NCBI RefSeq assembly: GCF_000151315.2
Contig: NW_011887292.1
Coordinates: forward strand, 537,534-601,533
From: Capsaspora owczarzaki ATCC 30864
Lineage: Eukaryota; Opisthokonta; Filasterea
Length of the DNA: 64,000 nt
Direction of reading: 5' to 3'
Under the pieces are notes generated by a model. It was not told where the DNA came from, made no database searches, and saw only the letters and a program-made list of their open reading frames with translations. Positions 7,442 to 64,000 of this stretch are shown one piece after another. The number at the start of each line of letters is the position of its first letter. Positions within the stretch are counted from its first letter, which is position 1. The translations under genes were made by a program, and so were the position numbers.

Positions 7442-10400
7442 ATGCGGCGTCGATCGTCTGCCATTGCGCTGATTCCCATCCTACTGGTGGTGCTCTCTTG
7501 CTTTGAGCGAGCAGCTGCCCAGTCCGCCTGCACCATGTGCCAGTGCCAGGCGGGAAACGTTGTGTTTTGCTATGGCGTTTCCGCGGTTCCCAGCGACTTC
7601 CCGATCGACACGACTTACATCTTTTTCTCCGTTTCGCCGCTGACGAGTGTTCCCTCCAATGCGTTTGATGGCCTGAACCAGTTGACGAGACTGACATTTT
7701 TGCAGACCGGACTCACTGCGATTCCATTCAATGCGATAAGCTCGATTACCACCCTTCAGAGTTTGTAAGAGGTCGCAACATGCACTTTTTTTTTGGGACA
7801 CGGCCGTTGAGCTCATGTGCCATTCATTGAACGATGCAGGACCTTTTCTCCGGCAACGTATCTGGCCGCTGATCTCACCGGCAACCAATTTACTGGGTTC
7901 CCGAGTCTTACCTATTTGTATGCACACCCGCGGCGCAGTTGTTTTGCTGCAGCTTGTTCCTAATTTCCACTCGCATGCTGACGGCTCAGAGATCTGAAAA
8001 ACGTCGAGTTTTCGAATTTTGCCGCCAACGCCTTCAATGGCCTGTCGCAATTAACGTCCTTGTAAGTCAGGGTCTGACGTTAAGAGTCTGATGCGGCCGG
8101 TGAAAGTCAATCATGCCAAGGTTTGACGCGACCATGAACCCTTCTCGACTCTTACGCAGATCCTTGACAATGACTGGCACTGCCACTGCTACTGCCACCT
8201 CCTTTCCCGTCTTTTCGGCTCTCACATATTTGTAAGGAGTCGCTTGTTTTTTCATTCGAGCTGTCGTGCGTACGGTTGTCTTCCTCAACCACGTCAATCC
8301 TGCTTACTTTTGGTTTTCTTCAGCTACCTGGATACTCCTGCAGTCGGGTCTTCTGCTTCAACTGAGCTCTTTGCAAAGATGCCAGCCTTGTCAACTCTGT
8401 AAGTTAGTTGAACCACAAAGTTGCTTTTTGAGTCATCATCGCTCACCATGCTTTGCGACGACCGGATCGAAAGATACATGGCACAAACTCGCGTGACATC
8501 GCTCGCGCCCAACGCATTTGCAGGCCTGAGCAATTTGACAACTCTGTACGGAATATCGTTGCACAATGCTAACTTGCGACTGCATATGCGAAATAACTGA
8601 TTCTGGTTGTTTAGCGCTCTATGGGGCACTGGCATCACGAGTTTTCCTGACCACGCATTTGCCCAACTTTCGTCCCTCCAAAGCTTGTAATGACCTCAGC
8701 ATGGCATGAATCAATGCCAGCGTAGTCGTTTCCTTTTGACACTAACTTTTCGTCGGCGGTAGGTCGCTTCATTCTGTACCCGTTACAACGATTGCTGCCT
8801 CAGCGTTCAGTGGGTTGACCAGCCTGACCTCGCTGTAAGCCATCTTGTTGACGCGTGCTTGGAAAAGTGACCTGCATTTTGACGGTTTCAATCCCTCTTG
8901 TACACATCAGCACGCTGGACGTCCACCTATTGACAAGCCTACCAACTAATGTATTTCAAGACTTGACCTCGCTGCGGGACCTGTACGGTGCTGCAGTCTG
9001 CTGGCATTTTACAGCCCGCTATGTTCGCTTCTGACTGTTTGGTGGATTTCCGCAGAGACATGAGCAGAGGGCCCTACGGCGTAGGCATATGTTTCACTGG
9101 AGTATTCCAGTCGCTCACCGAACTGAGCACTCTGCACATGAATTGGGGGGAGCCTTGTGCGCTACACACTCACGCCTTCACCGGCCTCTCTGCTCTTGAG
9201 ACGCTGTAAGTGAGGCCGATCGCGTTCACTCAGGTTCCATTGCATTCTCAACTGGCTTGTCGGATCATACCTTTTTCACCGCAGGAATTTGTACGGTCCC
9301 GTGGACAGCATCGCAGACAACGTGTTTGAGCCATTGCCATCCTTGAAGTCATTGTGCGTTACTGCATTGTGGGTTTTCATAATTATTTGACGCCAACCAT
9401 GCAACTCACAAACTTGTCACCGTCAGAAATTTGATTGTGCTTCCGAATCTCACCCTTGCTTCCAACGCGTACTCTGGGCTCCAGGAGTTGCCAACGTTGT
9501 ATGCCGCTGACGAAAGCGACGAAAGGCTGCGTGGAAAGCATGCGTCTTTTGTTGTTCTCACTTTCAGCATTTCTGATCTTGAAGATCTCTGAAGCTGACG
9601 CAGCTCAACGCTCCGATTTTTGAAATGTTCTCGGCTCTTCATGCGCTAACCACACTGTATGGTTGAAAAATCTATTGAGCTGTTGTTGGTTGTTGCTTGG
9701 ACCTCACAATGCTGCGAATTTGTGGTTCAGAGACTTGAGCGCATCGCAATTTTCCGTCCTTCCCAGTCATGCTTTCGCCGCACTCCCGCAGCTGACAAAC
9801 TTGTACAGTTGGATTTACCTCGGCTGGTTTTTGATTGGATTATACGTCTCACATTTCCTGTTTGATTGAGCAGATACCTGGGCAACGGAGCTTGGGACCC
9901 GGTAATTTCAAGCGTTGCATCCGATGCATTCTCAGATCTTTTGCAACTGGAATTCCTGTGAGGGCTGAGTGTGAAGCGTTGCTCAGCTGGACTATTTCGT
10001 GTTCTCAGTCTCTTCAAAACCAACCCGATAACGTTTTTGTTTGAATCTGTGCGAATGTTTTCGATAGGTCGATGGGTGGAAACTACGAAACCTTGACAAC
10101 CCTCCCTCCCGGCTTGTTCTATGGGCTCACAAAACTGCGTACAGCGGATCTGAGTGGTAACGCGTTTCCCGGTCCAAGCGCCCCGCCGAGCACCTATGGC
10201 AGCCCCAGTAATCCAACTCGTGAGTTTCTTCCACGCGGAGATGTGATGCAGCCAAAATGGATGAGCGGCTGTGTTGACTTGACTTTTTCTCCTTTTTGCT
10301 TGTACTTTTGTTCTTCGTGTCTTTACTCTCTCCTCGACAGCGTGCAACGCATCATGCGTGACCTGCTTTGCCGCTGGAGCCGAGTCGTGTTGCAGCGCCA

Positions 10401-12550
10401 ACTGTTTGACGTGCACTTCAACCAGCGTGTGCACCGCATGCTACAATGGGTTTGTGCTGGCGAATGGCCGGTGCTGGGCTCCGACGGATGCGTGTGCCGT
10501 TTGTACCTGCACTGGCACGGATGTCCAGCTTTGCAGCAGCTCGCTGACCGCCATTCCGACGAACATCCCCGTCACTACGACCTACTTGTACGTGTTATGC
10601 GTCTGTGTGTTTTTTTTTTCATTTGTTTGTTTTTGAGCTGTGCTTGCGAGATCAAGCTGACCGAGAAAACTTTCATTGTCCCGTGATTCGCCAGAAACCT
10701 CTGGGAGACCAAAATTTCGAGTTTGTCAAGCAATGCTTTTGCTGGACTGACGGCGCTGACAAGTCTGTAAGCATATACGTCCTCTTATTTTCGATCCTGG
10801 CCACGTCTCTCATCGTGAAATGTGTGATCAGGTACGTACCTTACACCGCCGATTCACCTCTACGCAACATCGAGAGCAATGCATTCTCGGGTTTGCCGAG
10901 TCTCCGTACCTTGTGAGTTTCGTTTGTGGCGATTCGCCTCAAGCTGCCTCGTCCTCAAATTTACCTCTCGTCTGCACGCTGGTCTTTGACCCCATTGTTA
11001 GGTACATTTCTTATCAACCGAATGCTACTGTGGCGGCAAGCGCTTTCGCTGGTCTCGAGCTCGTGAGAGAGGTGTAAGAATTCCGACACACAAGATTTGT
11101 CCACGTGAGAGCTATTGGACACTCATTGGTTTGCATTAGTGGTCTGCAAGTGCCTCAGCTCAACCACATTTCGAGTCAACTCTTTGCGTCGCTGCCAGGG
11201 GTCACCGCGCTGTATGCTATTTGAAGCAGATGCGTTTTTCGTTGCGCGAACAGCTCGTGCGACTCATCTACATACTCCTTTTTCTTCAACTTGGTTTGTT
11301 TGTTGTCGAAATGCAGGATTACCGTTGACAGTATGCTCTCTGTGATTCCCGCGAACGCTTTCGTCGGCCTTACGAATGTTCAACACTTGTGAGGAATGCT
11401 CTGCTTTCCCCCCCCCCTCCTGCTTCACATTGCCGCCACCACTCACTGACAAACATCGCTGTTGTTTGTAGGATTGTGACTGACATTGCTGGCTCGCCGA
11501 TGGTGACCAGCGTTTCCAGTCGCGCTTTCGCCGGACTTGTGAACGTTCAATCAATGTAAGAGCTGAAAGAGAACTTTGTGATTCGCCGACTATATTGCAA
11601 TTCTCATGATTGAGTGGGACATTGTAGCACTCTCGCCGACAATCCTGGTCTGACAACCCTGCCGCCGGGCCTCTTCCAAGGCCTGACTTCTCTGCAGTCT
11701 CCAAGCAACTCCTTGAGGGGCAACGGGTTTGCCGGTCCAAACGCCCCACCGAGCACATATGGCGACTATTTGGCTCCAATTCGTGAGTTTCTTCCGCAGC
11801 CAAAATGGATGAGCGGCTGTGTTGATGTGACTTTTTCTCCTTTTTGCTTATGCCTTTGTTCTTCGTGTCTTTACTCTCTCCTCGACAGCGTGCAACGCAT
11901 CATGCGCGACCTGCTTTGCCGCCGGAGCCGAGTCGTGTTGCAGCGCCAACTGCTTGACGTGCACCTCGGCAACCAACTGCACGGCATGCTACGGTGGCCG
12001 GATTTTGCAGCAGGGTGTTTGCATCAGTCCCGCCAACGACTCAGCCAGTACTTCTCCGCTTCCTGTTATTGTCGGTGCGACTATTGGAGGAATCGTTGCC
12101 GTGTTTGCGCTGCTATTGCTGCTGGTCGTGCTCCGCCGCCGCCGTTCACATAAGCCGGGCCAACCGCAGCAGGTTCACAACGTTGTCGCGACTGTGGGCA
12201 GCCGCAACTCTGTTTTCAGATCATCCAAGAAAGCTGAAGCAGAGGGACATGGCACCAACGCGTACGAAGCAGCAATGGCGCATGATTCCAACACTCACAA
12301 TCCTTTGTACGAGGCGCTTTCCGACCATCCCGAATCGTTTTATGCATCGACCGATATGTACGCAAGTGTTAGCCCCACGTACATGAATGCTGGAGCCACA
12401 GCCCAGTCCACGCCAAACCAGGAGCTTCACTATGTTGGGCCGGATCTTGCCACTGGTTCGACTCGTCCGGAGCTTGCCGCCTCTACGAGCAATTATGCAG
12501 TGATTGCAGGGACTGCTTCCTCCGATCCGACGTACGCCAATCTTCATTGA
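7442..12550 (+). CDS. LRR transmembrane receptor with tyrosine-rich tail
   Basis: Twenty-five exons join in frame to about 1,031 residues: 7442-7764, 7840-7917, 7990-8061, 8160-8231, 8324-8398, 8474-8545, 8615-8686, 8763-8834, 8911-8982, 9056-9205, 9285-9353, 9427-9498, 9585-9656, 9731-9802, 9874-9957, 10068-10219, 10341-10587, 10695-10766, 10832-10912, 11002-11073, 11140-11211, 11317-11388, 11472-11555, 11628-11782, 11889-12550. It has a signal peptide, a Cys-bearing N-cap, about 16 LRRs, a Cys-rich module, a second N-cap with 7 more LRRs, a second Cys-rich module, one membrane span (about residues 870-893) followed by RRRR, and a 138-residue tail. Most repeats are a single 72-nt exon with phase-2 introns. 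The tail holds NPLY, YASV, YMNA, YVGP, SNYAVI and YANL, resembling PTB, GRB2-SH2 (YxN), CRK-SH2 (YxxP) and ITIM-like sites. Ligand unknown. The exon 13 acceptor (gaag) is the least certain join. Confidence 0.88.
10068..12000 (+). repeat. Intragenic duplication, Cys-rich module with its intron
   Basis: The C-cap exon, following intron and Cys-rich exon at about 10090-10450 recur at about 11650-12000. The introns (10220-10340 and 11783-11888) are nearly identical, sharing for example the blocks gccaaaatggatgagcggct and gtctttactctctcctcgac. They differ by one short indel and scattered substitutions. The exons are as similar as the introns, so the copy is recent or has been homogenised by gene conversion. 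Confidence 0.9.
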
Positions 12551-13155
12551 GCCTCCTGTACTTTGGCGTTGTCTCTGGTGCTTTCAGCGCGAGCTGCGAC
12601 GAGTTTTCTGTGCCTTGCCCGAGATTCTAGGACATTCCACAAGGTGTTTTTGACAAAGTGTTCTGCTTTTGCGTTTGACTCGAGCGCTTGTATGTTTGTG
12701 TTGGAGTTATACGACCTTCTTGGTCGTCCGTGTTCGAGTTACGTGGCCTTCAAGGTCGCTGGTGTTCATTTGAGTTCTTTCATGTTATGGTGTTTGGTAA
12801 ACATGTTTCACCTGGTGTTTCTTGAAGTTCTCAAGTGGTTTGGTTTCTTCAATAAAAATCCGTCTGATGAACCAGTGGTTCTCCGAAGCCTATTTCGTGC
12901 CTTCCGTACTCGCCGACACCACGTCCGTCCTGGAAGTCCGTCCGTCATTTCCAAAGTCAACTCCTCCTCCTCCTCCTCCTCCTCCTCCTCCTCCTCCTCC
13001 TCCTCCTCCTCCTCCTCCTCCTCCTCCTCCTCCTCCTTGCAAATTATGTCAACAGACGGAATCTCACTTGATTAACAGTGATGAGCAAAAAAAAAATTGG
13101 TTCAATACTTTGCGTTTATTTTGCCTGGTCAAATCGAGCGTTTAGCGCGCATCGC
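12551..13155. other. Intergenic with a (TCC)n microsatellite
   Basis: Spacer between convergent 3' ends. It contains an AATAAA hexamer near 12851 (ttcAATAAAaat), a candidate poly(A) site for the LRR receptor. A near-perfect TCC/CCT trinucleotide array lies at about 12961-13037, a potential polypurine-polypyrimidine triplex tract. No gene is visible. Confidence 0.7.
12961..13037 (+). repeat. (TCC)n microsatellite, about 25 units
   Basis: Pure CCT/TCC repeats of about 77 nt. In translation it gives poly-Ser, poly-Pro or poly-Leu, so the long frames through it are artefacts. Confidence 0.95.
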
Positions 13156-29245: not shown

Positions 29246-30391
29246 TTACTGCCGCAAAGGTGACCGCGCGGGATCTGCTCCGTCAACTGGCGTTGCAGAA
29301 GAGGACGGACTGCGGGCAGGAACGAAGGGCTGCGCGTGCGGGGACAGGGTTGAAACCGGAGGGCTGGGTGCCTGGTACGGTGGCGCATCGTCGCGCTCGA
29401 CCGGCGCCTCTTGCCCTTCATGAGAAAATTCCGCCCAGTGCTGGGGATTCTTCCTGTAGCAGTTTGGGGCGAACGAGCACGGCTTGCGGCCGTCGGCGCT
29501 CCAGTTAATCCAGCCGTGCTGGCCAATGATGCGATTAAAGTGCTTGCGAGCATCGTCCTCCGAGTACCCCGTGCGCGGCTGGGGCCCAAACATGGCGTCG
29601 AAATCGATGCGGCCCGGACCAACGCCCGCTGCCGGGTTGTCCGAGACGAGATTGATGATGACCATCCAGAGGAGCGACTCCATGACGTAGCGGGACTTGT
29701 AGCCCGCGGCCGTGTGCGTGTTGACGAGGACCTCGAGGCAGACCGACCCGCCGACCGAGACGTGGCCCGTGTGCCACTTGAATCGCGGCGACACCACCCG
29801 GAAGAAGGGCGGCTCGGTCGGGTACTGCGCGGGGAAGTTGACCTGCAAGTGGATGTGGTCTTGGCCGTTGCGCTTGATCAGCTCGTCCAGGTCTGCCGCC
29901 AGCCCGGAGTCCTGCGGCAGGTTTTTCTTGTACAGCTTGATATTCCAGATGTCGAGCGCGTCTGTCGTGCATTATATTCAGAGAAGAGAAGAGAGGGTTA
30001 GCAAATAGAGTAGGCGAGCTGAGGAACATGACACAGCTAAAGATTTGCTTTTGCAAGCCAAGTCGCAACGCGCTTGCTCGTTCCACTCCTGAGCTTTCCT
30101 CCACACTCCACTCCACTCCACTCCATAGCATCTGGGGGGAATGAGTACGTGTACGTGTCGTGGCTTGAACTCACCTCCAGTGTCACCGCCGAGGTCAATG
30201 TCGTACTCGCCGCTCTTTACGAGGCTTCGGAGTTCGAGCTGCAGCCGCTTTGTTCGTTGAAGCTCGTTGCCAATCTCAGTCGACTGCGCCTGCTGCTGCT
30301 GTTGCTGCTGCTGCTGCATTGTTGAAAATAAAGACTGGAGACTGAGTTTGAAACCATCCATTGAATTCACTCTTGAAATATCGTTCTTCAT
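29246..30391 (-). CDS. UBE2Q-like E2 fused to a PBZ zinc finger
   Basis: Two exons (30175-30391 and 29246-29961) join in frame to about 310 residues. The UBC domain covers about residues 70-200: KLYKKNLPQDS, VNFPAQYPTEPPFFRVVSPRF, HTGHVSVGGSVCLEVL (presumed active-site Cys147) and YVMESLLWMVIINLV, most like the UBE2Q branch. Residues 231-253 form a poly(ADP-ribose)-binding zinc finger: CSFAPNCYRKNPQHWAEFSH, with Cys234, Cys240, His246 and His253 in the PBZ spacing and the CYRKNP core seen in APLF/CHFR. The tail is Pro/Ser-rich. The N-terminus has a short poly-Gln run (MQQQQ). An E2 with its own PAR reader suggests ubiquitin transfer at PARylated sites; this is inference. The start is taken as the furthest upstream ATG in frame; ATGs at 30357 or 30319 are alternatives. 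Confidence 0.85.
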
Positions 30392-33002: not shown

Positions 33003-35743
33003 ATGAATTCCAGACTGGCTCGACGCATGGCGGTTTTCGCTGTCGTGGCTGTTGTGGCAGTTCTCGGCATTGCTCGCATGCGAGACGGTACGGCACTTTG
33101 TTGCGTTTGCACATTGGCTTGACTGCTCGTCATTAACGCGAGAGCGCTGCGTGGTCGTGTGTCTGGGTGGCGTTCTGCGTTTTGGTGGCATCGGCGTTTG
33201 TGGGTTCGGCAGCTAAATCGAACATTGTCCAAAAAAAAAAAAAAAAAAATCCAAAACGGCTGGTGTTGCGGTTCTCCTGCCCTCCCTCCTCGCCGCTGGG
33301 CGCCGCTCCGTCACCCAAGGCCCATCAGAGCTGCACCTCCTCATCATCGAGAGGTGGGGGTTGACGAGGGCGGCTTGCATTAGAAACCGGGGGATATGCC
33401 ATCGGCCGATCGAAAAACTGACAACCTGTCAAATTCATCACACTCAGTTGGTTCCACCATTTTTTATATTATTTTTTTTCTTTCCACGGCTTGGCTGAAG
33501 CGATGCGTCTCCGTGTACCCCTTGCAACGTAGTCAACGCTGGTCGTCTTCTTTGAGTGGGGGGAGGGTGTGGATCTCGGTTGGCGGAGGACGCTGAGCGC
33601 GCACCCAGACTGACCCCATGCCGTCAAACCGTTTTCGAGATGGGCGGGCTGGATTCCGATTTCCGTCGTTTTTTATTTTGAGTCTTGGTCATTTTGTTTT
33701 CTCAATCTGCTGTTGATTGAATCGCACCTGGAGAGCGAGAGAGAGATTGTGTGAGAGAGATTGAGATTGTGTGAGAGAGGTTGTTTGCCTCTTTGAAACT
33801 GTCAAGCAGCAAAGAACGGACGCTTCTTTGTCAACCCTTTTTTTTTGTAATTTCTATTTGCCAACCCCGCCTCCCCTGCCTTGACAACTCAAACCATGCA
33901 CCAAAAAACTTCCACATCCGCTTGCTGCTTGCAGAAGCCATGGCCGAGCGAAACAAGGTGCCGCCGTTCTTGACACGGAGCGCGGAATCCGCGAGCGACG
34001 AGCAGGCGCTTCGACAACTCCAGCTGGCCCAGGCTGAGGCCGTCCGACGCCAGGCTGCCTTCGACCAGACTGCGGACAGGCAGGACAGTCAGCTGCAAGA
34101 GCTCAGGCAGCGGCATGCACAGGAGCTGGCTGCACTGCAGACGCGCAACGACGCTGCCAGCATGCTCCTCAACAGCATCCAGACGGCGACCACGTACTTT
34201 GCCTCGGCCAAGCAGCGCCGCGACAGCACGGGCTCGCAGCAGTCTCCTCCTCCGGCTGGCGATGCTGCTGCTCAATGGGACGGCGCCACCCTGGTGCGGG
34301 AAATCCGCAACGCCGCCATGTCGCCCCGCGCCGCCACCTGCGAGACCATCCACATTGTGGTTGTGTGCGCTGGCTTCCGGTCGGTGCGCATGATGGTCCC
34401 GCTGCTCAAGTCCATTCTGTTCTACCGCACCAACCCCTTGCACCTCCACTTTGTCGTCGACGAGGCGTCGCGCGAGCCGATCGGCACCTTGATTGAGACG
34501 TGGAACTTGAGCCGCGTCGAGCTGTCGCTGTACGACCTGGCGCCGTTCGAGAGCAAGGTGGCGTCCATCCCGACCGTGCACTACTCGGGCAAGTTTGGCC
34601 TCATCAAGCTGGTCTTGGCCAACATTCTGCCAGAGTCGGTCACGCATGTGCTCAGCCTCGATACGGACTTGCTCTTCATGCGGGACGTGGCACACCTGTG
34701 GGGCCACTTTTCAGAGTTCACCGAGGACCAAATGTTTGGCCTGGTGGAAAACCAGTCAGAGTGGTACATTGAGCAGGAGGCGCGCAGCAGCAAGACCACC
34801 TCTGCCTCCAAGCTGTTGCCGAGCCTGCCGTGGCCCGCGCTGAGCCACGGTTTCAACACTGGCGTCATGCTTCTCCGCCTTGACCGCCTTCGCCTTCGTG
34901 CATGGGACGAGACTTGGCTGAGCGTGGCCATGAAGGAGTTGGCTCTCCGACCCGCTGGCAAGCAGACCACACAGCTCGCCGACCAGGACGTTATCAACGC
35001 GGTGGCTCTCACCCAGTCTTCGATCGTGTACCGCCTCCCGTGCACATGGAACCTCCAGCTGAGCGACAACTCGTTGGCGGCTCCTTGCGTGATTGCAGCG
35101 TTGAACGGCCACGACAGCGTCAAAAACTGGCAGGTTTCCACGTTTGCCCCCGAGGGCAACCCCAGCGACCCCAAGACGGTCATCTCCAAGCTCAAGAACG
35201 CGCCGGAAGCCGTCGGCATTGTCCACTTCAACTCACCCCGCAAGATGAAGGTGCAAAACGCCTTCACCGAGTACTACCGCCATCTCCACGCCACCTTTTC
35301 GCAGCTGGACGGCTCGACGCTCCGCCGCGAGCTCATCTCGTGTCGCCCCGAACTTCTCGACCCCGCAACGAGCTCGCACGCCATGCATTCAGAGGCCGAG
35401 GTCGAAAGCGACGATCCGTGCATCGAGTACCGTCTTGCAGCCAGCACCAAGCCGCGCACACACGTTTACTACTTTGACTACATTCCTCCCACAGCCAAGG
35501 AGACGGGCCAGGAGGTGACGTGGATTTCCCAAATGTCGTGGGATCGTCTGGGCATGCTCGAGCAGATTGCAGAGCGATGGAGCGGTCCGCTGTCGATTTC
35601 TCTCTACCTCAATGACTATGACGTTGATGATCTTGTTGACCATTTCGAGACCTCTGATATTCTCCGCACACGCAAGAACATTGCGTTGCATCTCGTGTTC
35701 AAGGAAGGAGTAAGTGGGAGGTTTTTTTGATTCAATTTTTTTT

Positions 35744-46135: not shown

Positions 46136-46726
46136 AAACGCGCGCCCTTGAGAGTTGTTGCACAAACAGCGAAAAGCCTCTTTGTATCGTTCTGTGAATG
46201 TTAACAAGCGCTTCACCGACCGTACTCCAGACTTCCATTTTTGTTGTTGTTGTTTGTTTTGTTGCTTGTGTCGTACCCAACACCCAAAGACCTTCCATTC
46301 TTGGTTGGTTTCATTTTTTTTTTTTTTTTTTTGTTCTACTTTTTCCTTTGTTCATTTTTTTTTTCTTTCATTTTCTTTGCTTCTTTGCTTCTTTGCTTTT
46401 GTTTCTCTTCTTCTTTTCTTCTTTGCTTTTCTCGTCTTTGATTTGTGTTTCTTGGTTGTTTTTTTCCATTCAGTTTTACTTTTCTTTTTTTTTACAAGCC
46501 TTGTGTTTGTTTCCTTTTCCATTTTTTCAAAACTTCACCGCAAAACAAGTCTATTTTTTTTTTTTTTTTTTTTTATTACACTTTCGCTTTTTGCTTTGAG
46601 TTTTAGGTTTTTTTTTTTTTTTTTTTTTTATTGTTGCTTTTGCTCTGTTTTTTTTTTTTTTTTTTTTTTTTTTGTTTTGTTTGGTTTTTTCATCCAACGA
46701 CGTGCGGGGAGGTGGAAAGTGGGAAC
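46136..46726. other. T-rich leader upstream of ZCCHC14-like gene
   Basis: From about 46230 to 46695 the plus strand is extremely T-rich, with at least five T runs of 12 or more (46316-46332, 46555-46574, 46608-46629 and 46650-46673 among them). It ends about 30 bp before the ATG at 46727. Frames through it give only poly-Phe/Leu. It probably serves as promoter or 5' UTR. Confidence 0.65.
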
Positions 46727-49474
46727 ATGCCAGCGGATATCGAGGCGTTCAACCGGCAGGCGGCCGAGATTGACGAGTGGTTTGGCCTGCTTGAGCCGAG
46801 CGAGCGAACCACCATTCTGTGCTCGCTGCTGCAGCACTGCAACCCGCTCGAGGTCCGCTTCCTGTCGACCGTGCTCGACGAGATTGCATCCCGCGACTAC
46901 TACCACCTCCGCTCGCTCGAGACCTGGGCGAACAGCGTCGAGTACCTCGTCGAGCTCGATGTCCAGACAACCAGGCAGCTCAATGCCGCGCACGCCGCGT
47001 TTGCCGCCGCGCCACCAAGCACTGCTACCACGACTGCTGCTGCTGCTGCTACTTTTGCGAATGGCAAGCACCCGCCAGGCACCGGTGGCGGTGGCGGTGG
47101 CGCTGGCGCTGGCGGATCACCATCATCATCATCGTCCTTGTCCTCGTCGAACTCGTCCTCAGCTTCCTCCTCGTCGTCGTCCACAGTCCACAGAATTCTG
47201 TCCAAATTGGCCCAGCGATTGCTCGAGTTGCTGCCGCTGCTGCACGTTCGCAACTACCAGGCGTCGTCGCGGTACTTCCCGCTCATCCAGCGCGTGTTTG
47301 ACCACTCGATCGACGCGTCCAACGCCGGGATACAGCAGCACCAGGACGAGCAGCCATATGAGTTTGCCAACCACTGCCGCACCATTCTCACGCTTGCACT
47401 GACCCACCCGTCCTTTACGTTTCACCAAAAGGAAACAGTCATGGGCCTGCTACAGCGTCTTCTCTTCCTCAGCGGCCTGCGCGAGGGCGAAGAAGACGAA
47501 GAAGACGAGTCCAACCGCCAACCCGACACGACGACCGGAGCGGTTGCTGGCGGCGAAGCGCAGTCCAAGGATCCCGTGGAAGGAGCGTCAGCATCATCAT
47601 TGTCGTTAGTAGACACTGCCTCCACCGATGGAGCTGGTGCCAACAGCGCTGCTCTTCCTTCCGTGCCGCCTTCCGCGACGCCGTCCGCCGAGAGCAATGC
47701 GCGACGAGGAACCGTGCGGCACTCCCATCCAGCTGCCGTCAAGCGGCCCCACTCGTTCATGGACCATCCGCAGTCCATGCTGGGCTTTTTGCAGTTCCTC
47801 AAACCTGACTTTACCACTTCGTTCTCCTCGCTCGAAGCGCAGAATCACGAAGTCGCAACCACAGCACAAGTGTCGCCAAACATATCGCGCGGCAATTCGT
47901 CCGACCGTGTGCTAGAGCACTTGCACGACAAGCAACAATCCGCGGACGCGCCACCTCCTCGAAGAAACGGCGCAGGACAACACTTTGCATCCAATCACAT
48001 CCAAACAGGCGGATCTGCATTTGGACCGACCTCCTTTTTCGCCCACAGCGCCAACCCGCAGACATCCGTCCCAGCCGTGCAACTCGCTGCGCGTCCTGCA
48101 TCCTATGCGTCGCCCGCTGGCGAGCTCAAACCAGTGCGCCAGGCCCCGCCTCCCCCAGTCGCTGCAGCAGCCGCACAATCGTCGCATGCTTTGCAGCAAT
48201 CCCACTCCACGCCGGCTGCGCCACTACATCACAATCATCAACAACAACAGCATCATCATCATGTCTCTCATCACACCCCCGCTTCTACTCCAGCACTCCA
48301 CATGCAACAGACACCGCCATCTGCATCCCAACAATTCCATTTGCAGCAATATCGGCAACACCACCAGCAATCTGAGCCGTCCATCGCATCTCCCGCGCCT
48401 GCCGCGTCAAAGGCGGCGCAGTCTCCACCCAAAGGGCAGACATCGTATCAAAATATCGACATTCCTTTGTGGCTGAGAGGCTTGCGATTGCACAAGTACG
48501 CGCCCCTGTTTGAGACCATGACCATCGAAGACATGCTGCAGCTCACAGAGTCGCAGTTGCTCGGCTGGGGCATGACTGCGGGTGCCAGCAAAAAGCTGTT
48601 AGTGCAGCTGGATGAACTGCGTCGCACCAACCTTCCCTCGGCGGATCGCCGGTCGCGGGGATCGGTCAACTCGAATGAGGACGATGCATCAGGCACTGCT
48701 GGTGTCGGCAAGTCCAGCAAGGCTGCGCGCCTTGCAGAGGCCGCCGAGGAGCACATTTACGATGAGATTTACACTGACGGCGGCGATATCGTTCCCAAGC
48801 CCAACAAGGCGGCTTCGGCAAGGCCACCCATGCCTGCACCAACAGCCGAGCGTCCAGTATCTCAGATCCACCCCATTCGAACTGCGCCGAGTAAGCCGGC
48901 ACCAGCGGCCGCCCACGCTTCGCCAGTGCCAATCCGTTCCGACACTACGCAACCGCATTCGCCTCGCCCCGTCCCTGCTCAGCGCGAGCGTAAGACCAGT
49001 AGCTCCAGCAATGTTGCCGCCAACACCGCCAGTGGCACTCCGGCGTCGGAAGCTCGGCCTGCAATGCCGCTACCTCAGAATCAGAACGGACCAAGTGCGC
49101 CAGTGACGTTACCCACTACTGCTGCTGCTGCTGCCGCTGCCCCGACCAAGGAAAAACCTCAAATCAAGCAACGAGCGAGCTCCTCGACGTCATTGGCTGT
49201 ATCGACTCACTCATCGGGCTCGGCAACGCCCGTCACTCCTGGGCCAGCTTCCCCTCGCGCCGCCCCCATCAACCCTGGACCCACGTCCCCTCGTCTCAAC
49301 AACGCTGGTGTCGTTCCTGCCTCGGGCCCTTCTGGTACTCTTCCAGTCGCCGCCGCGGCAGTATCTCTCCCTTTCTGCTTCAACTGCGGGGAGGAAGGAC
49401 ATGTTGGTCATGAATGCCCAGTGCGCAATATTGATGCCGATGTGCACGAGTCGCTTGCACACAGCTTTGCATGA
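46727..49474 (+). CDS. ZCCHC14-like SAM and CCHC zinc-knuckle protein
   Basis: One uninterrupted exon of 915 residues. The N-terminal 60 residues (EWFGLLEPSERTTILCSLL, CNPLEVRFLSTVLDEIA, RDYYHLRSLE) match the N-terminal domain of animal ZCCHC14/ZCCHC2. A SAM domain lies at about residues 576-636 (IPLWLRGLRLHKYAPLFETM, LGWGMTAGASKKLL), of the Smaug/VTS1-like RNA-binding kind. A CCHC knuckle lies near residue 883 (CFNCGEEGHVGHEC). The remainder is Gln/His, Ser/Ala and Pro low complexity. In human cells ZCCHC14 binds CNGG-type RNA loops through its SAM domain and recruits TENT4 poly(A) polymerases; a similar RNA-stability role is inferred. Confident on domains and family. Confidence 0.88.
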   Translation: MPADIEAFNRQAAEIDEWFGLLEPSERTTILCSLLQHCNPLEVRFLSTVLDEIASRDYYHLRSLETWANSVEYLVELDVQTTRQLNAAHAAFAAAPPSTATTTAAAAATFANGKHPPGTGGGGGGAGAGGSPSSSSSLSSSNSSSASSSSSSTVHRILSKLAQRLLELLPLLHVRNYQASSRYFPLIQRVFDHSIDASNAGIQQHQDEQPYEFANHCRTILTLALTHPSFTFHQKETVMGLLQRLLFLSGLREGEEDEEDESNRQPDTTTGAVAGGEAQSKDPVEGASASSLSLVDTASTDGAGANSAALPSVPPSATPSAESNARRGTVRHSHPAAVKRPHSFMDHPQSMLGFLQFLKPDFTTSFSSLEAQNHEVATTAQVSPNISRGNSSDRVLEHLHDKQQSADAPPPRRNGAGQHFASNHIQTGGSAFGPTSFFAHSANPQTSVPAVQLAARPASYASPAGELKPVRQAPPPPVAAAAAQSSHALQQSHSTPAAPLHHNHQQQQHHHHVSHHTPASTPALHMQQTPPSASQQFHLQQYRQHHQQSEPSIASPAPAASKAAQSPPKGQTSYQNIDIPLWLRGLRLHKYAPLFETMTIEDMLQLTESQLLGWGMTAGASKKLLVQLDELRRTNLPSADRRSRGSVNSNEDDASGTAGVGKSSKAARLAEAAEEHIYDEIYTDGGDIVPKPNKAASARPPMPAPTAERPVSQIHPIRTAPSKPAPAAAHASPVPIRSDTTQPHSPRPVPAQRERKTSSSSNVAANTASGTPASEARPAMPLPQNQNGPSAPVTLPTTAAAAAAAPTKEKPQIKQRASSSTSLAVSTHSSGSATPVTPGPASPRAAPINPGPTSPRLNNAGVVPASGPSGTLPVAAAAVSLPFCFNCGEEGHVGHECPVRNIDADVHESLAHSFA

Positions 49475-56405: not shown

Positions 56406-58985
56406 CGCTTCACCCTTTTGTCGCACAGTGCTCGATTTGGCATTTTCATCCATCTGCGGTTGCGCCTGTGCCCGTCACATGGCACATTTGGGCCTTCTTT
56501 CTGCCAAACAACGCACGCCGCTTTTGACATTCCTCGCTTCATTGGAGCTTTCTCTCTGCCAAGCACGGCCCTGTACGGATTGGGGATTTGAGGCAATAGT
56601 GGGGAAGGGGGAAAGCTGGGAACACCAAAAAAAAAAAAAAAAAAAATCCTAGAAAAAAAATGTCAAGTCAGTTGACATCCTGTTGGTATTGGTTTGCTTC
56701 GCTACCACCGCGCAACATCACACAGATATGGCAAAATCATCGCATTGTTTGGGTGATTTGCTATTGGGGACCCTTGTGCTTTTTCCATTTGCTGTTGTCT
56801 TTTTGTGGGATGTTCTCCGACGGCAATTAGCACTTCCCACCACATGTCTTGCTCCTGCATTGCGGCTTGCGATTGATTGTACGATGCGTTCATTGGTGCA
56901 TATGAACGCTCGTCCTCCTTTGATTTTGGTGGTTGGCGCATGTTCGCGCGCATGCCTCGGGATCAAAAGTGTGCCTCGACTCACTTTCACCACCTCCACA
57001 GCTGGTACCATGGCAGACTCTCCCGTGGACAAACTGAAAGCTTGCTCCAGGGCAAACCCAACGGCTGCTTCCTCATTCGTGACAGCACCTCGTCACTGGG
57101 CGACTACGTCCTGTCCGTCAGCGAGAGTGGCCGAGCAAGCCATTACATTGTTGCCGCTCGAGGCAATAGCTACATCATTGGTGATCAACAGTTTCGCGAC
57201 CTGCCGCATGTCATTGAGTTTTACAAGAAGCAAGTGCTGGATACGACCATTCTTACACATGCAGTAGACGTGGTAAGTGTCTCTTTTTCTCGCTTTGGGG
57301 ATTTTTATGCCTTGTCCCTTGCTCAGGCCCTCACGCTGTTTGGGTGTGACTTTTGCTCGTTTTCAGGACAACCCGCACGGCACGTTCGGGGGCACTCCCA
57401 GTGGAGTCTTGGCCACCGTTCGTGCTACACACGATTTCCCTGGCACAGATCGCGAAGATTTGCCGTTTGCGCGCGGCGAAATTCTTCAGGTCTTGCGCAA
57501 AAACGACGAAAATTGGTGGCATGCGCAGAACGCTCAAGGCCGAACGGGTGCCATTCCTTGCACTTATGTGACCGTACGTCCAACGCGCGCATGCACACAA
57601 CACAACGAGGCGTATCTGAGGCGCTTTGCTGACCTGATGTTCTCGTCTTTGCTTGCTGCAGGTAATCCAATCATCGACTTCGTTTGCACCGCCAGTACCA
57701 GACACACCTCGCCCGGCTTCCAACAGTATTGGCTCCCGAGGATCCTCTCGTTTGGAGCGCTCTCAATCCACCATCGGTCCCCCGGACGGCTTGACTTTCG
57801 GCAGCCGCTTGGTCCGTTCGACCTCGGACGCGCCACCACCAGTACGTTGTGTCCCGTTTTTTATTTACACAATTTTTTCATGCGTCTCATTTTTTTGCAT
57901 TGGCACTTGCCTTCCTGTTGCCCCACCCCCCGGTATCTCGTACGCATCCAGGGATTTGACGCCAATATGAGTCGCACCGCCTCACTGCGCCGTGGCTCGA
58001 CTGCCACCGACGCAAACTACATCAAGAAAGTGGTCAAAGTTTACGACGAAAAGGGCCTGTTTAAGGCCATTACTGTTTCTCCCGCGCTCTATCTTTGCAA
58101 GGATGTGCGAGAAGCCGCCATGCAAAAGTTTGTTCTGACAGGCCCCAGGTGGATCTTGTACGAGCAGCTCAAGGACGGAGGTACGGGCTGCGCTGTTGTT
58201 TTTTTTTCTCGTCAAGTTGTCTTCCCTGTTTGTGGGTGCGTCGACTCACTGCCACCCGTGTGACATTTGGTGACAGAGCGCCTCTTGAATGACAATGATA
58301 ATATTTTGGAACTGGTCCTTGCGTGGGGCAATCAAGAATTCCGATTAATCATCCGGCAAGCCAAGGACAATGTTGCGAGCGGTCTTCGGTCGCCAAAGGT
58401 ATGATGCTATTCGGATCAGATTTCGAGGAGGGCCTTTTCCGATCGATGGTGATTCGTACCTCGTTTGTGGCTGACTCTGGCTGTTTCTGTTTCCTTTCCG
58501 TTTTCTGTTTTCTGTTTTCTATTTCCTTTCTGTTCTGGTCTTGTGCGTGCTTAGCTTCCCCAGCAGTCAGAGTTTACTCCATCAAAACCGCTCGACCCTC
58601 GCGTGGTTGCCCAGGCGGTTGCCATCATGAACCGAGTCCCCAATGCTTACGACACGTCGGCGCTCTCGTTCAGCGTACGGGGCTGCTTCCTCGTCGTTGT
58701 GTTGCTTTTTTTTTTGCTTTTTTTTTTCTTTTTTTTTTTTTTTTTTTTGCTCACGCCTCTCCTCCCCTTCTTCGCTTGTAGGTTGGCGATATTATTGACG
58801 TCATTGAAATGAGCGATACCGGCCTATGGAAGGGTATCGCACACGGAAGAACTGGGCATTTCCCCATGACGGCTGCAAGCCTGATTGAAGCTGGGCTCGG
58901 TGTGGGGCGGTTGCAAACATCGTCCTCCACTGGTGACATGAACGGGGAATTTGATTCAATGCTTGATCAGTTGAAGACGTTCTGA
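55919..58985 (+). CDS. CRK-like adaptor: SH2-SH3-RA-SH3
   Basis: Nine exons close in frame: 55919-55949, 56060-56189, 57002-57272, 57367-57573, 57662-57841, 57952-58180, 58277-58398, 58555-58674 and 58782-58985. They give about 497 residues (human CRK 304). SH2 at about 55-145 (WYHGRLSRGQTESLLQ, FLIRDS with the phosphate-binding Arg, GDYVLSVSESGRASHYI, LPHVIEFYKKQVLDTT). SH3N at about 158-212 (ATHDFPGTDREDLPFARGEI, WWHAQN). A Ser/Pro linker. RA domain at about 297-387 (KKVVKVYDEKGLFKAITVS, VREAAMQKFVLTGPRWILYE, FRLIIRQ). SH3C at about 407-467 (IMNRVPNAYDTSALSFSVGD, GRTGHFPMTA), which matches the CRK SH3C signature RVPNAYDKTAL. CRK links pYxxP sites to RasGEFs and DOCK proteins. The RA insertion is not part of animal CRK as I know it. 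Exon 2-3 spans an 812-nt intron. Confidence 0.9.
56190..57001 (+). other. Long second intron of the CRK-like gene
   Basis: It begins GTAAGT and ends CCACAG right before the SH2 tryptophan. It contains T runs (56206-56223 and 56370-56405) and an A run (56627-56646). No alternative exon is evident, although 56880-57001 stays open in the SH2 frame and could give a longer alternative N-terminus. Confidence 0.75.
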
Positions 58986-59571: not shown

Positions 59572-62178
59572 TTACGACACTTGCATGGAAGGGCGGCGAA
59601 TGGGGTCTTCCGGTGCATTTTCGTAACTCTTCATTTGCTTGTTGAGCGTTGGCAAGTCACGAATAATGCGGGCATTCTGCAGGTAGTTCTGGACGTGGTG
59701 CTTTGGCTCGAGGGTCTTGTACTGGTCGCGGCCATAATCGTACATCTTGTAGATAATCTTGGAAATCATGCGAAGCTTGTCAAAGTTGACCATTTCGTTG
59801 ACGAGCCTGGGGTTGCCGTCGTTGATAAACACGAGATCTTTCAAGTAGACGGGGAGGAAAGGAAGCACTGGCTCGTTTGGCTTAATGTTCGCGATTGCCT
59901 CGCGGTAGGCACGCATGTTGCGGCTGGGGTTCATAATCTGCTCGATGCGCTCCTTGGCCTTGATCACCGCTGCTGGCAACAAGTCCCAAGCGGCCTTCAG
60001 CTTTCGGATGACTGGGAAGTGCAAGCCACCCATGACAGAGAAGACAGAGTAAAAGTTGTTGAGGGCGAGGCAGTGCTTGGCGACCATGATGAACTTGGCA
60101 ATCAGATCGGCTTGCGACTTGGCATCGCGACCGCCGTACACAATCTCCGAAGCCACCCAGAAGCTCTCAGTGTCAAAGCGGAGAATAAAGTTGCTGAGGA
60201 AGGGCGCATACTGCGTGCGCTCGCGGTCCTTGGGAGTCCATAGCTGGTGCACAAACTCGAGCGGATGAATGTTTTGATAGAGACCAGAGTCGAACAGCGT
60301 CATTTGCTCGGCCAAGTCCTTCGCCTCGAGTTGGGTGACAATCGAATCGAGGACCTTGACTTTGCGCTCCGTGTTGAGCGCCTCGGCAGAGGCCAGAGTT
60401 TTCTCCCAGTCGGCATCGTTCTTGTCGAGCGTGTCCTTGATGTACTTGTAGGCGATCGTGTAGCCGGAATGCAGAATTTCGGGGACAAAGTCGTGCAGCG
60501 CCTGGTACAGCCGAGTGTTGTCCTTGAAATCGGGCCAGTGGTGCTGCGTCCACTCCAAAAGCACCTTGAGCACCTTGGTTTGAATTGGACGCTTCCACTT
60601 TTGGTAGTACTGCATGTCTTCTGCGGTCGGATTTTCTTCGGGCAGAATGTTAAAGCGACCGACGAGCATGTCGAACAGGTCCATCGGCTCCATGTATTGG
60701 CGATAGGTCAGCAAGACGACGTCAACGTAGCCGGGCTCGAGCTCATTCTCATCGGCCAGACGCTCGACAAGGTTGGTGGGCAGACCGGCGAGAACGGTCG
60801 GGGCCAGAACAGATCCTTCGGTGGACTGGAGCACCATGACCTGCTTGCCGTTCTCGTAGACATAGACGGTGCGCACATTGGGATCTTGGGTTGCGGCAGC
60901 GAGGAACGGATCCGTGATTTGCGCCGCGAGCATTTCTTCGTCGACAGGGTTGACCTGGTCGCCAAAGATGACGCTGGCCTCCTGCTTCTTGTCGCGCATG
61001 CGCTTGGACATGGACATGTAGAAGGTCGAGCCACGGCGTCCCGATATTACTGCATGCGCGCCACCCGATGCTGGGGCTGCGGGGTCCTTGACAGTCGCGC
61101 CGTTGGCCGCGCGATACGTGACAAGGGTTGATTCGGAAAGGTGACGCTTGACGTTTTGGCGTTTCATGGTGTCGCTGCCAGATTCCTCCGACACATGGGG
61201 CTCGGGAGAGCCAGGTGCCGCCGATGCAGCCGCAGCGGCCGCGGCAGCCGCCGACGCAGCAAGGCTATTTGAGCTCGATTCGTTCGACAGGGCTGCATCC
61301 TCGGTGCTGTTGTGACGGCCAGACGCTGCGCTGGCAGCAGAGTTGGCAGCGGCCTCGGACATGGCCGCGGAAACGGCAGAGTAGACGCTCGATGACTCGA
61401 CGGACGAGTCACCTTCCGAGTGCTGGAAGCTCGAGAGGTCGGCGTCGGCCTCGGCGTCGCCTTCCGGGACCCACTTGGTCTTGGGGAAGGCCGTCTCTGC
61501 AACTCGGACCTCGGTGTGCTTCTTGCTGGGTGCAGAAAGCGTCCATCGGTAGACCGACTTGAGCCAGTCAACCACGCCAAAGATGGCTGCAATCCACTCC
61601 TTCTTGTCTGCTTCGGACGAGCACTTGAACGTGTAGTGGAAGGACTCGCCAAAGCGCACGTCAAACTTGAGTGCGTGGTCGTGAACGTTCGACGGCGTCT
61701 CTTGCAAGACCATGCTCTTGAGAAGAATCGGGAAGCCGACAGGGACGCCCTTCGGTGCGCCAGTCTTGGTCTTTGCGGGGCCCTTGCCGGCCTTGTAGCA
61801 GAACAGAATGTCGCTGAACAAGAGCAGCTGCACGCCGCCGCGATGCTTCTCGCCCTTGTTGAGGCCTGCGTCCTTGGACTCGCCCTTCGAGGACGGCGAC
61901 TGTGGGACTGGGATGTCCGGGGTGGCCGCAATGCCCTCAATGCTGTTCAAGTCCTTGAGCTTGGCAAGCGCCGAGTGGTACGGTGGCACGTCCACCGTGA
62001 CGGAACGCAGCTCGCCGTTTCGCAGCAAAAATCGTGCGCCCTGCGAGAGGTCAAAGTCCTCGAGGTTGGTAAAGTCGACCAGATCGCGCAGCTCGGCCTG
62101 GTCGATGGTGACTGCCTTGCCGCCCTTCTTGGGCGCTCCCAAGTTTGCGACAGACGCCTTCTTGGACAGGGAAGCCAT
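59572..62178 (-). CDS. Ras guanine-nucleotide exchange factor with PH-like domain
   Basis: Single exon, 868 residues from the ATG at 62178. The N-terminal 230 residues contain a PH-like region (RFLLRNGELRSVTV, GGVQLLLFSDILFCYKAG, FKCSSEADKKEWIAAIFGVV). An Ala/Ser-rich linker follows. The RasGEF N-terminal (REM) module starts near residue 430 (YVDVVLLTYRQYMEPMDLFD, KVLKVLLEWTQHHWPDF). The CDC25 catalytic domain covers about 610-850: LAEQMTLFDSGLYQNIHPLE, FILRFDTESFWVASEI, FIMVAKHCLALNNFYSVFSV, PVLPFLPVYLKDLVFINDGN and VNFDKLRMISKII. It should activate a Ras/Rap-type GTPase at membranes. No classic CRK-binding PxLPxK motif is visible. The frame is open for 230 codons upstream, but that part is T-rich simple sequence and is excluded. 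Confidence 0.92.
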   Translation of the reverse strand: MASLSKKASVANLGAPKKGGKAVTIDQAELRDLVDFTNLEDFDLSQGARFLLRNGELRSVTVDVPPYHSALAKLKDLNSIEGIAATPDIPVPQSPSSKGESKDAGLNKGEKHRGGVQLLLFSDILFCYKAGKGPAKTKTGAPKGVPVGFPILLKSMVLQETPSNVHDHALKFDVRFGESFHYTFKCSSEADKKEWIAAIFGVVDWLKSVYRWTLSAPSKKHTEVRVAETAFPKTKWVPEGDAEADADLSSFQHSEGDSSVESSSVYSAVSAAMSEAAANSAASAASGRHNSTEDAALSNESSSNSLAASAAAAAAAAASAAPGSPEPHVSEESGSDTMKRQNVKRHLSESTLVTYRAANGATVKDPAAPASGGAHAVISGRRGSTFYMSMSKRMRDKKQEASVIFGDQVNPVDEEMLAAQITDPFLAAATQDPNVRTVYVYENGKQVMVLQSTEGSVLAPTVLAGLPTNLVERLADENELEPGYVDVVLLTYRQYMEPMDLFDMLVGRFNILPEENPTAEDMQYYQKWKRPIQTKVLKVLLEWTQHHWPDFKDNTRLYQALHDFVPEILHSGYTIAYKYIKDTLDKNDADWEKTLASAEALNTERKVKVLDSIVTQLEAKDLAEQMTLFDSGLYQNIHPLEFVHQLWTPKDRERTQYAPFLSNFILRFDTESFWVASEIVYGGRDAKSQADLIAKFIMVAKHCLALNNFYSVFSVMGGLHFPVIRKLKAAWDLLPAAVIKAKERIEQIMNPSRNMRAYREAIANIKPNEPVLPFLPVYLKDLVFINDGNPRLVNEMVNFDKLRMISKIIYKMYDYGRDQYKTLEPKHHVQNYLQNARIIRDLPTLNKQMKSYENAPEDPIRRPSMQVS

Positions 62179-64000
62179 GTTTTGGGGGAGGGAGGGGGGG
62201 GGAAGTTGTTGAGCTATGAGAGAGAGAGGGAGACGGTGAAGTGAAGGGAGAAACAAAAAAAAAACAGTGAGCAAAGTTAACAGTGAATGGAAGTCATGTC
62301 CAAAGAAGAAGACAACCAAGTGTGAAAGGGGGAAAAACAAACGCTGTGTGTTAGGAAAGGAAAAGTGATGATGGGAGGCAGAGGGCGTCTGAGTGCGAAC
62401 AGAGTGCTCATCGTAGCCAGTCGAAGATTTAGACAGTTTAGACAGTGGAAGGGACACGCCAAAAAAAAAAAAAAAAAAAAAAATACCAATCTTAATGGAA
62501 AACAAAAGAAAAAAAAAACTCCAATAAATACAAAAAAATAGAAATAATAATAATTCGATTTTTTTTGTGTGTGTGTAGTTGCGGCTTTTTGTGTTTGGGT
62601 TTGTTGTTTGTTGTGTGAAGGGGGGGGTTGGAGCTGGGTGACAAAGAGGCAAGTACAAGGAAATGGAAGTGGGAGGAGCAGTGAGGGGGAGGGAGGAGAA
62701 GGCACAGAGGTTGAAGCGCGAGAGTGGGTAACAAACAAATAAGAATAGTAAAAATAATAAAAATAATAAAAATAATAATAAAAAATAATAGGGAAGATGG
62801 CGTTGACGCTCGCGACCGTGACAGATGCGTGCCAGGTGAGGAGGCGCCCACAGTGCTTGTTGCACCACTGATCAAGCTGGGTAACAGAGTAGCACAGTAA
62901 CACGGGGGGGGGACGGTCGAAAGGGCATCGGCATAGAGCCAGCAGATTTTTGACTCGCAAAAACAATAATGATCAAAAAAATAATAAGAGAAAAAAAAAG
63001 AGAAAAAAAATACATCAAATAAATAAAAGTGATGATGCGAAGCGTTCCGTTGACCAAGTGTGCGGCCAATGGCCAGAGCGAGCTCACACAGCCACCAACC
63101 CAGCAGGTTGCAAGACGCAAAGCCAGACACTGGATCAGTCGCGGTCGCAGGAGGCGGCAGACGCGTCGAGATGGCCAGCGAACAAGCTGATCCCGACTAT
63201 TGTGTGTTTTTTGTGTTTTTTTTTTTGTTTTTTTTTTTTGGTTTTTTTTTTTTTGGGCACAGAATTCTTCTCCCTGTTGTGAAGTGGAGAACTCGACCCC
63301 CCCCCCCCGCCCGCCCCTTCTGCACGCCCGTCTCCCATCTCTCCCATCTCCCTTCATCGATGATTCGCTTAGAGGCGTCGTCCTTCCACTCGCTCGGAAT
63401 TGTCAACAGAGGAGGAGAGCAAAACAACGACATGAAAAAAGCGAAAACTTACAAAAAAAAAAAAAAAAAAAAAGAGAAAAGAAACCAAAAAAAAAAAAAA
63501 AAAAGAATGAACTGATTGTCAAGTTGTGCAACACAAAGTGGCGAATGCCAGCTGTGTTGCTCGTGCACTGTGTCAGAGCACTTGTAGATTTTTACAGTCA
63601 AAAGTAAGATCTAGGCGAGGGCGCGAGGGGGGGGCGGGTGAATTGTTCAACCGAAAGCGAAATCTCCTGAAAAAAGCGCGCTTGCACCTTTTGGAACAGA
63701 TTTGGGATTCTGAGAGACAACATGAAAGCAACCAGTCATAGACTTCAGTAGAACAGCACCATGGCCTGAATACCACTACCGCCCTCGATGCACTGTTGGC
63801 CTTATGCTCGGCGTTCTGTGATTGTGAACTTTCTTCAGCCAGTTCAAAACAAACTGTGCACTGATTGTTCACGCTCTTCGCCATCCTCCCTCGATAAACA
63901 ACGATGAAGAAATCACGCAGTCATCAAGGCGGATGATGGTTCATTTACAAAACAGCGTGTGCCGGGGCATCAAAGGCAACTTCTTCATCGGTTCATCAGC
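62179..64000. other. Upstream of RasGEF to window end, no supported gene
   Basis: About 1.8 kb. It contains many homopolymers (A runs at 62461-62483, 63457-63473 and 63487-63504; G/C runs at 62905-62911 and 63298-63308; T runs at 63223-63254) and AAT repeats (62750-62789). Minus-strand frames at 63573-63884 have a good ATG (MAKSVNNQCTVCFELAEESS) but no recognised domain. The start of another gene may lie at the window edge. Confidence 0.4.

Follow-up and report, generated by a model that had tools for sequence, protein, structure and literature searches.

A kinase-less leucine-rich-repeat receptor with a tyrosine-rich tail in Capsaspora owczarzaki belongs to a large family sharing ectodomain parts with receptor kinases

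In the LRR-ROCO genes of brown algae each leucine-rich repeat (LRR) is encoded by its own exon of 72 bp in phase 2, exon shuffling has been described, and alternative splicing as well as selection at concave sites were reported (PMC11378527). In vertebrate gonadotropin receptors, too, the LRR exons are in phase 2 and correspond to roughly one repeat each (cited in PMC11378527), and in the ciliate Tetrahymena uniform phase-2 exons of LRR genes were multiplied as exon-plus-intron units, which was ascribed to ectopic recombination; these exons are 90 bp and not 72 bp long, and a single origin was suggested for the 90-bp category (PMC6564038). In choanoflagellates, kinase-less membrane proteins with YxxP tails were proposed as candidate partners of CRK, and two peptides of one such protein bind a CRK SH2 domain (PMC5043372). 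Here we analyse a gene of Capsaspora owczarzaki ATCC 30864, located at 7442-12550 (+) in a stretch of 64,000 nucleotides (nt) of contig NW_011887292.1 (the window), and the family to which it belongs. Its product is best explained as a phosphotyrosine docking receptor working beside receptor kinases that share its ectodomain parts, a reading to which we assign a probability of roughly 0.6.

The gene was modelled by hand as 25 exons (7442-12550) joining into a single open frame of 1031 residues. All 24 introns are of the GT-AG type and 65-121 nt long, 22 of them are in phase 2, and of the 23 internal exons 13 have a length of exactly 72 nt and 20 a length divisible by three, which is the 72-nt, phase-2, exon-per-LRR layout of the brown algal genes. 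Both the exon chain and this layout had been read from the letters in an earlier note on this DNA, and they are borne out here. A non-functional copy or a wrong gene model is highly improbable: ten internal exons deviate from 72 nt and the model is hand-built, but one open frame crosses all 25 exons, every intron is canonical, the tail motifs are intact, and an AATAAA stands about 300 nt past the stop (12851-12856, +).

On this forward strand a signal peptide of about 26 residues (7442-7519, by eye from the translation) and a first N-cap (C-x2-C-x-C ... C, 7529-7640) precede the first LRR array on exons 1-16, mostly 72-nt phase-2 exons, which is supported by the model, Pfam and exon lengths (7641-10219). 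Phase-1 intron 16 (10220-10340) and Cys-rich module 1 (CNASCVTC...GRCW, 10343-10477) follow, and then a second N-cap (CAVCTC..., 10493-10587), a second LRR array on exons 18-24, assigned from the model and exon lengths (10695-11782), phase-1 intron 24 (11783-11888) and Cys-rich module 2 (CNASCATC...GVCI, 11891-12025); both modules are recognised from the translation and by family match. The last exon continues with a single membrane span, IVGATIGGIVAVFALLLLLV (12068-12127, mean hydropathy 2.8), and a cytoplasmic tail of 140 residues with 8 tyrosines (12128-12547). The modules and the span are as the earlier note had described; its two N-caps are recognisable by eye from their Cys pattern, and Pfam LRRNT gave no match for either. 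A CTC triplet repeat lies directly 3' of the gene, at about 12966-13036 (+).

Searched with Pfam at E up to 1, the product matches nine LRR models, several of them below cut-off. Above the cut-offs there are LRR models only, and the sub-cut-off matches include DUF2970 (E 0.19) and TM_ErbB1 (E 0.86). Neither a kinase nor a TIR domain was matched at E up to 1, nor a ROC-COR tandem, so that the product is neither a Toll-like receptor nor an LRR-ROCO protein, and it carries a membrane span and a tyrosine tail instead of the ROC-COR GTPase of the latter (PMC11378527). No kinase motif occurs in the 1500 nt 3' of the stop, and among the kinase matches listed for the genome (134 of 545 candidates scored) no PF07714 match lies near the gene. 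The earlier description as a kinase-less single-pass receptor thus stands. Gonadotropin receptors have seven membrane spans, as is characteristic of the LGR and glycoprotein hormone receptors, whereas the one hydrophobic span of this product follows the module in the last exon.

A block common to both halves of the gene was recently copied or converted, because introns 16 and 24, the two in phase 1 and each standing before a Cys-rich module, are nearly identical (101 of 106 aligned bases and one 15-nt gap), as are exons 17 and 25 in their initial parts (114/129). Measured as identity over the longer intron this intron pair reaches 0.83; the next best pair of the gene reaches 0.68 and the median is 0.55. 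Thirteen of the 22 phase-2 introns have a donor that by itself creates a stop codon, hence an unspliced transcript would terminate at that repeat. This is a consequence of GTAA or GTGA donors, and it gives no evidence of regulation. In Capsaspora, RNA-seq of three life stages was described, with regulated exon skipping found enriched in kinase genes and intron retention found to be stage-specific (PMC3870316).

In order to place the gene in its family, the last exon was used as query against the genome (27.46 Mb, 29 contigs). It gave 166 matches, of which the 150 listed fall into 108 clusters. A cluster was called kinase-bearing when PF07714 matched on the same strand within a stretch reaching from 1.2 kb before it to 2.5 kb after it, which holds for 36 clusters and not for 72. 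The module is covered (query position 2 to at least 45) in 92 of the 108, 28 with kinase and 64 without, where 64 is an upper bound, since 134 of 545 candidates were scored for PF07714 and a cluster does not equal a gene; the remaining 16 match outside the module and may be partly chance. Altogether 38 module loci, together with overlapping ones, were read in detail. These do not equal 38 genes (L009 and L012 are both the 7442-12550 gene, and L023 lies inside L076). They hold 25 open frames that run from module to stop with a membrane span and without kinase, and after removal of three short tails and two near-duplicates 20 tails were kept, that of the present gene included. A kinase motif 3' of the stop was found for none of 22 tails, over 29 to 5099 nt downstream per tail, and the same search detected it in a control locus where a short tail lies upstream of a kinase (L071).

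In 16 chosen modules ten columns are invariant, giving the pattern C-x3-C-x2-C-x7-CC-x3-C-x2-C-x5-C-x2-C, and the 7442-12550 gene contains two copies of it. With phase-2 LRR exons upstream, one span, a Tyr-rich tail and no kinase, it belongs to the kinase-less branch. The module profile compared with R-spondin-2 chains gave E 5.8e-4 for the whole sequence, the best single stretch reaching only E 0.11, and Pfam Furin-like_2 matched one of the 16 members (E 0.065). The same Cys-rich module is found in receptor kinases of this genome (L011, L022, L034, L069 and L072), which differ from our product in carrying a kinase domain and whose juxtamembrane region contains tyrosine; phase-2 LRR exons were found in four of them as well, and none in L069. 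On a tree of the modules 8 changes suffice to explain the kinase label, compared with 9.1 in shuffles (108/500 as low); the label is mixed, but the 48 columns resolve little. At five further loci on five contigs (L015, L019, L020, L031 and L032) the module frame has no clear membrane span, and some LRR exons and introns are identical or nearly so; these are recently spread copies, perhaps with secreted products.

The exon type is shared as well. In 36 of the 38 loci, with and without kinase, phase-2 LRR exons precede the module, and these are the paralogues of equal exon layout for which the earlier note had proposed to search. Thirty-four of the 38 loci contribute an LRR exon unseen in an earlier locus, giving 196 distinct exons, 166 of exactly 72 nt and 13 from the 7442-12550 gene. 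The antisense control yielded 4 such exons, or 6 under a slightly looser donor rule, thus the layout is not a product of chance; among the 196 exons a few chance hits are probable.

In some relatives the repeats stand in tandem as exon plus intron. At L023 a 72-nt exon and a 65-nt intron recur with a period of 137 through 8.9 copies (85% matches), and at the kinase locus L034 the period is 138, with 7.6 copies and 76% matches. When one array intron was searched genome-wide, all 31 matches listed lay 5' of family modules, in nine genes, four with kinase and five without, and the copies of this intron in a kinase-less gene of contig C9 and in a kinase-bearing one of C14 are 97% alike. Array introns are thus common to kinase and kinase-less members of the family, and from the arrays and the shared intron it appears that exon-plus-intron units have moved within and between both kinds of receptor. 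The 7442-12550 gene has no recent tandem array; of the proposal that repeats are gained as exon-plus-intron units, the general part is supported in relatives, and its application to this gene is not. We also considered that the array introns might be genome-wide mobile introns, and rejected this at the sensitivity of the search, as 31 of the 31 listed copies (13 candidates scored) are 5' of family modules. Separately, at L034, L076, L016 and L033 the introns of some exon-plus-intron units are up to 97% alike. Between array units the proportion of synonymous differences (pS) is 0.36, compared with 0.05-0.07 for the introns; these values come from 6 to 10 pairs that were selected because their introns had diverged little. 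Selection was rejected as the cause of introns being more alike than exons, since synonymous sites have diverged too, and it looks as if array introns were homogenised and exons were not.

Diversity among the repeats is concentrated on one face. Among 128 distinct peptides encoded by 72-nt exons, none of the other 23 - 5 positions varies as much as the five x of xxLxLxx, which we take from general LRR structure to form the concave face (23 positions in all). Entropy averages 3.48 bits at concave, 1.94 at other exposed and 0.97 at buried positions, and the 13 exons of the 7442-12550 gene show the same order more weakly (2.74, 2.22 and 1.42). Over the 9 closest pairs the ratio of nonsynonymous to synonymous change (dN/dS) at the five concave positions was 0.91 (95% interval 0.45-2.17); it was 1.54 (1.05-2.37) over 27 pairs, 1.46 (1.10-2.00) over 41 and 1.27 (0.97-1.65) over the full set of 56. 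At the remaining positions the corresponding values were 0.62, 0.39, 0.44 and 0.44. For diversifying selection at concave positions these values are suggestive at best.

The 20 kinase-less tails contain 140 Tyr in 2507 residues (5.6%), 4 to 12 per tail, and 18 Phe. In the 7442-12550 product 8 Tyr fall in the 140-residue tail versus 23 in the first 868 residues, and their motifs are NAYEAA, NPLYEAL, FYAST, MYASV, TYMNA, HYVGP, SNYAVI and TYANL. Beyond its KK this tail runs through 105 residues with just one R, which stands before P, so that digestion with trypsin should leave one very long peptide that routine phosphoproteomics would probably overlook. The five sites listed in the earlier note (NPLY, YMNA, YVGP, SNYAVI and YANL) are all among them, and SNYAVI agrees with the consensus [SIVL]xYxx[ILV] of the immunoreceptor tyrosine-based inhibitory motif (ITIM). 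Compared with 2000 shuffles of each tail, the motif classes, which overlap, are strongly enriched: 17 NPxY where 0.6 are expected, 76 Yxx[ILVM] (20.9), 20 YxN (7.4) and 32 [SIVLT]xYxx[ILV] (7.4), each number being reached by 0/2000 shuffles. Around the tyrosines, with 15 juxtamembrane residues omitted, there are 31 acidic residues at -3, 47 at +1 and 31 at +2, where about 13 would be expected at each of these positions. Basic residues are scarce from -3 to +3 (1, 3, 1, 0, 2 and 0, with about 6 expected at each position) and add up to 7, compared with an expected total of about 36. Kinases and SH2 and PTB domains prefer such Tyr contexts. In one subfamily, of which 10 tails were aligned and to which the present gene does not belong, 7 Tyr columns have an average identity of 0.90 versus 0.74 for 128 others (115/10000 permutations as high). 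It is therefore clear that the Tyr contexts are not random.

The main rival to docking is an endocytic or phagocytic uptake receptor, with clathrin adaptors reading unphosphorylated NPxY and YxxΦ so that prey material or lipid particles are taken in and no signal is given. NPxY is present in 15 of the 20 tails and Yxx[ILV] in all 20, and clathrin-dependent lipid uptake as well as membrane proteins with cytosolic NPXY were described in Capsaspora, the receptor not being identified there (PMC13171883). The acidic, base-poor Tyr contexts described above, the excess of Tyr over Phe, as expected if the hydroxyl matters, and 4 to 12 Tyr per tail, in our judgement beyond what uptake needs, argue the other way, and we hold this alternative to be unlikely, although docking and uptake are compatible with each other. 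It is quite improbable that the receptors act as integrin-like adhesion receptors whose NPxY binds talin-type FERM domains and couples the LRR ectodomain to actin. Capsaspora integrin tails do recruit human talin via NPXY/F (PMC6450878), and integrin-beta matches occur at 4 loci of the genome, but motifs other than NPxY outnumber it and 5 of the 20 tails have none.

For the docking reading, potential partners are encoded in the genome, which has many PF07714 kinase matches, 34 SH2 matches that include fragments, and 16 matches to the protein tyrosine phosphatase (PTP) domain. A CRK-like SH2-SH3 gene lies in the window itself, with its SH2 domain at 57003-57224 (+; 78 bits), and is a possible reader of such tails; this gene spans about 57003-57561 (+), and its SH3_1 match scores 52 bits. 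On another contig two SH2 matches are followed by a PTP match (G000:C13:292722-294496, +), the domain order of SHP phosphatases, which makes its product a possible reader of ITIM-like tails. PF00640 and PF08416 had no genome match, but their controls were equally silent, which makes this negative uninformative.

As we envisage docking, the two LRR arrays and the two Cys-rich, possibly furin-like modules would recognise a ligand outside the cell, and the tail would be a multi-site phosphotyrosine platform phosphorylated in trans, most likely by those receptor kinases of the genome that have module and LRR exon type in common with this receptor, or else by kinases of the Src type. Once phosphorylated, NPxY, YxN, YxxP and [SIVLT]xYxx[ILV] could serve as binding sites for SH2 or PTB adaptors and for an SHP-like phosphatase. 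Ligand binding, phosphorylation, pairing with the kinases and adaptor recruitment are all predicted from sequence.

Several observations weigh against this reading. For YxxP, the CRK motif, the enrichment is no more than mild (20 versus 11.6, reached by 19/2000 shuffles), acidic residues are depleted at -2 (4) and +3 (2) of the tyrosines against about 13, and PTB readers are few, with three genome matches of the IRS-type PF02174; the earlier phosphotyrosine-site reading thus holds for the Tyr contexts, which are far from chance in the 20 tails, and less well for CRK and PTB partners. Additionally, NPxY and YxxΦ double as clathrin-adaptor motifs, and by the genome-wide intron search the shared array intron is not among the introns of the 7442-12550 gene. 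On the side of the family, the mixing of the kinase label in the module tree is poorly supported, kinase-less clusters are overcounted by the partly scored kinase search, and three clusters on contig C5 are probably one kinase gene, clusters not being genes.

A wider reading, doubtful as a whole, is that of a pre-animal recognition repertoire of tens of receptors, in which a shared pool of exon-plus-intron units would move between kinase and kinase-less tyrosine-tail receptors, ligand-facing concave residues would be hypervariable under diversifying selection, and activating kinase members would stand against docking or inhibitory members, with SH2 adaptors and an SHP-like phosphatase as readers. 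If true, it would resemble paired activating and inhibitory immune receptors.

Four other coding regions of the window were recognised: a frame with Glyco_transf_8 and Glyco_transf_49 matches at 33775-35730 (+), an order which we take to resemble animal LARGE; a ubiquitin-conjugating domain fused to a PBZ zinc finger at 29249-29971 (-); a RasGEF with RasGEF_N and PH domain at 59575-62871 (-); and a Vts1-like protein with SAM domain and CCHC zinc knuckle at 46607-49471 (+).

Animal ITIM receptors and ErbB3-type docking receptors lack an active kinase and signal by phosphotyrosine docking; their ectodomains are unrelated to that of the 7442-12550 product, for which docking is a prediction. Also comparable are the YxxP proteins of unicellular holozoans, which share with the present family the membrane location, the lack of a kinase and the repeated tail Tyr motifs, and one of which, A9V449, has a Cys-rich growth-factor-receptor-like ectodomain (PMC5043372). 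They differ in being defined by YxxP repeats, some having SH2-like domains, whereas NPxY and Yxx[ILV] are the leading motifs in the tails of the present family; for Capsaspora no such peptide match was found, and a second profile search lists Capsaspora membrane proteins in the supplement (PMC5043372). The term 'leucine-rich' is absent from the text of that paper (PMC5043372). No kinase-less tyrosine-tail LRR family was reported in the Capsaspora and filasterean literature searched, a search outside which the Suga 2012 and 2014 kinome surveys lie. The uniform phase-2 LRR exon layout and kinase-less tyrosine-tail membrane proteins before animals are thus already known, and the LRR family and its sharing of cassettes with receptor kinases are new as far as the literature was searched. 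The earlier note was right in outline and too narrow, having missed the large family that shares ectodomain parts with receptor kinases.

Tyrosine kinases are numerous in the unicellular relatives of animals, but their substrates are largely open, and the pre-metazoan substrates of FAK, SRC and ABL were called unknown (PMC5043372). The size of the present family and the regularity of its tails provide a concrete and testable set of candidate substrates. Furthermore, with one phase-2 exon per LRR a holozoan joins brown algae and vertebrates, among others, and in this genome the same type of LRR exon serves receptors with and without kinase.

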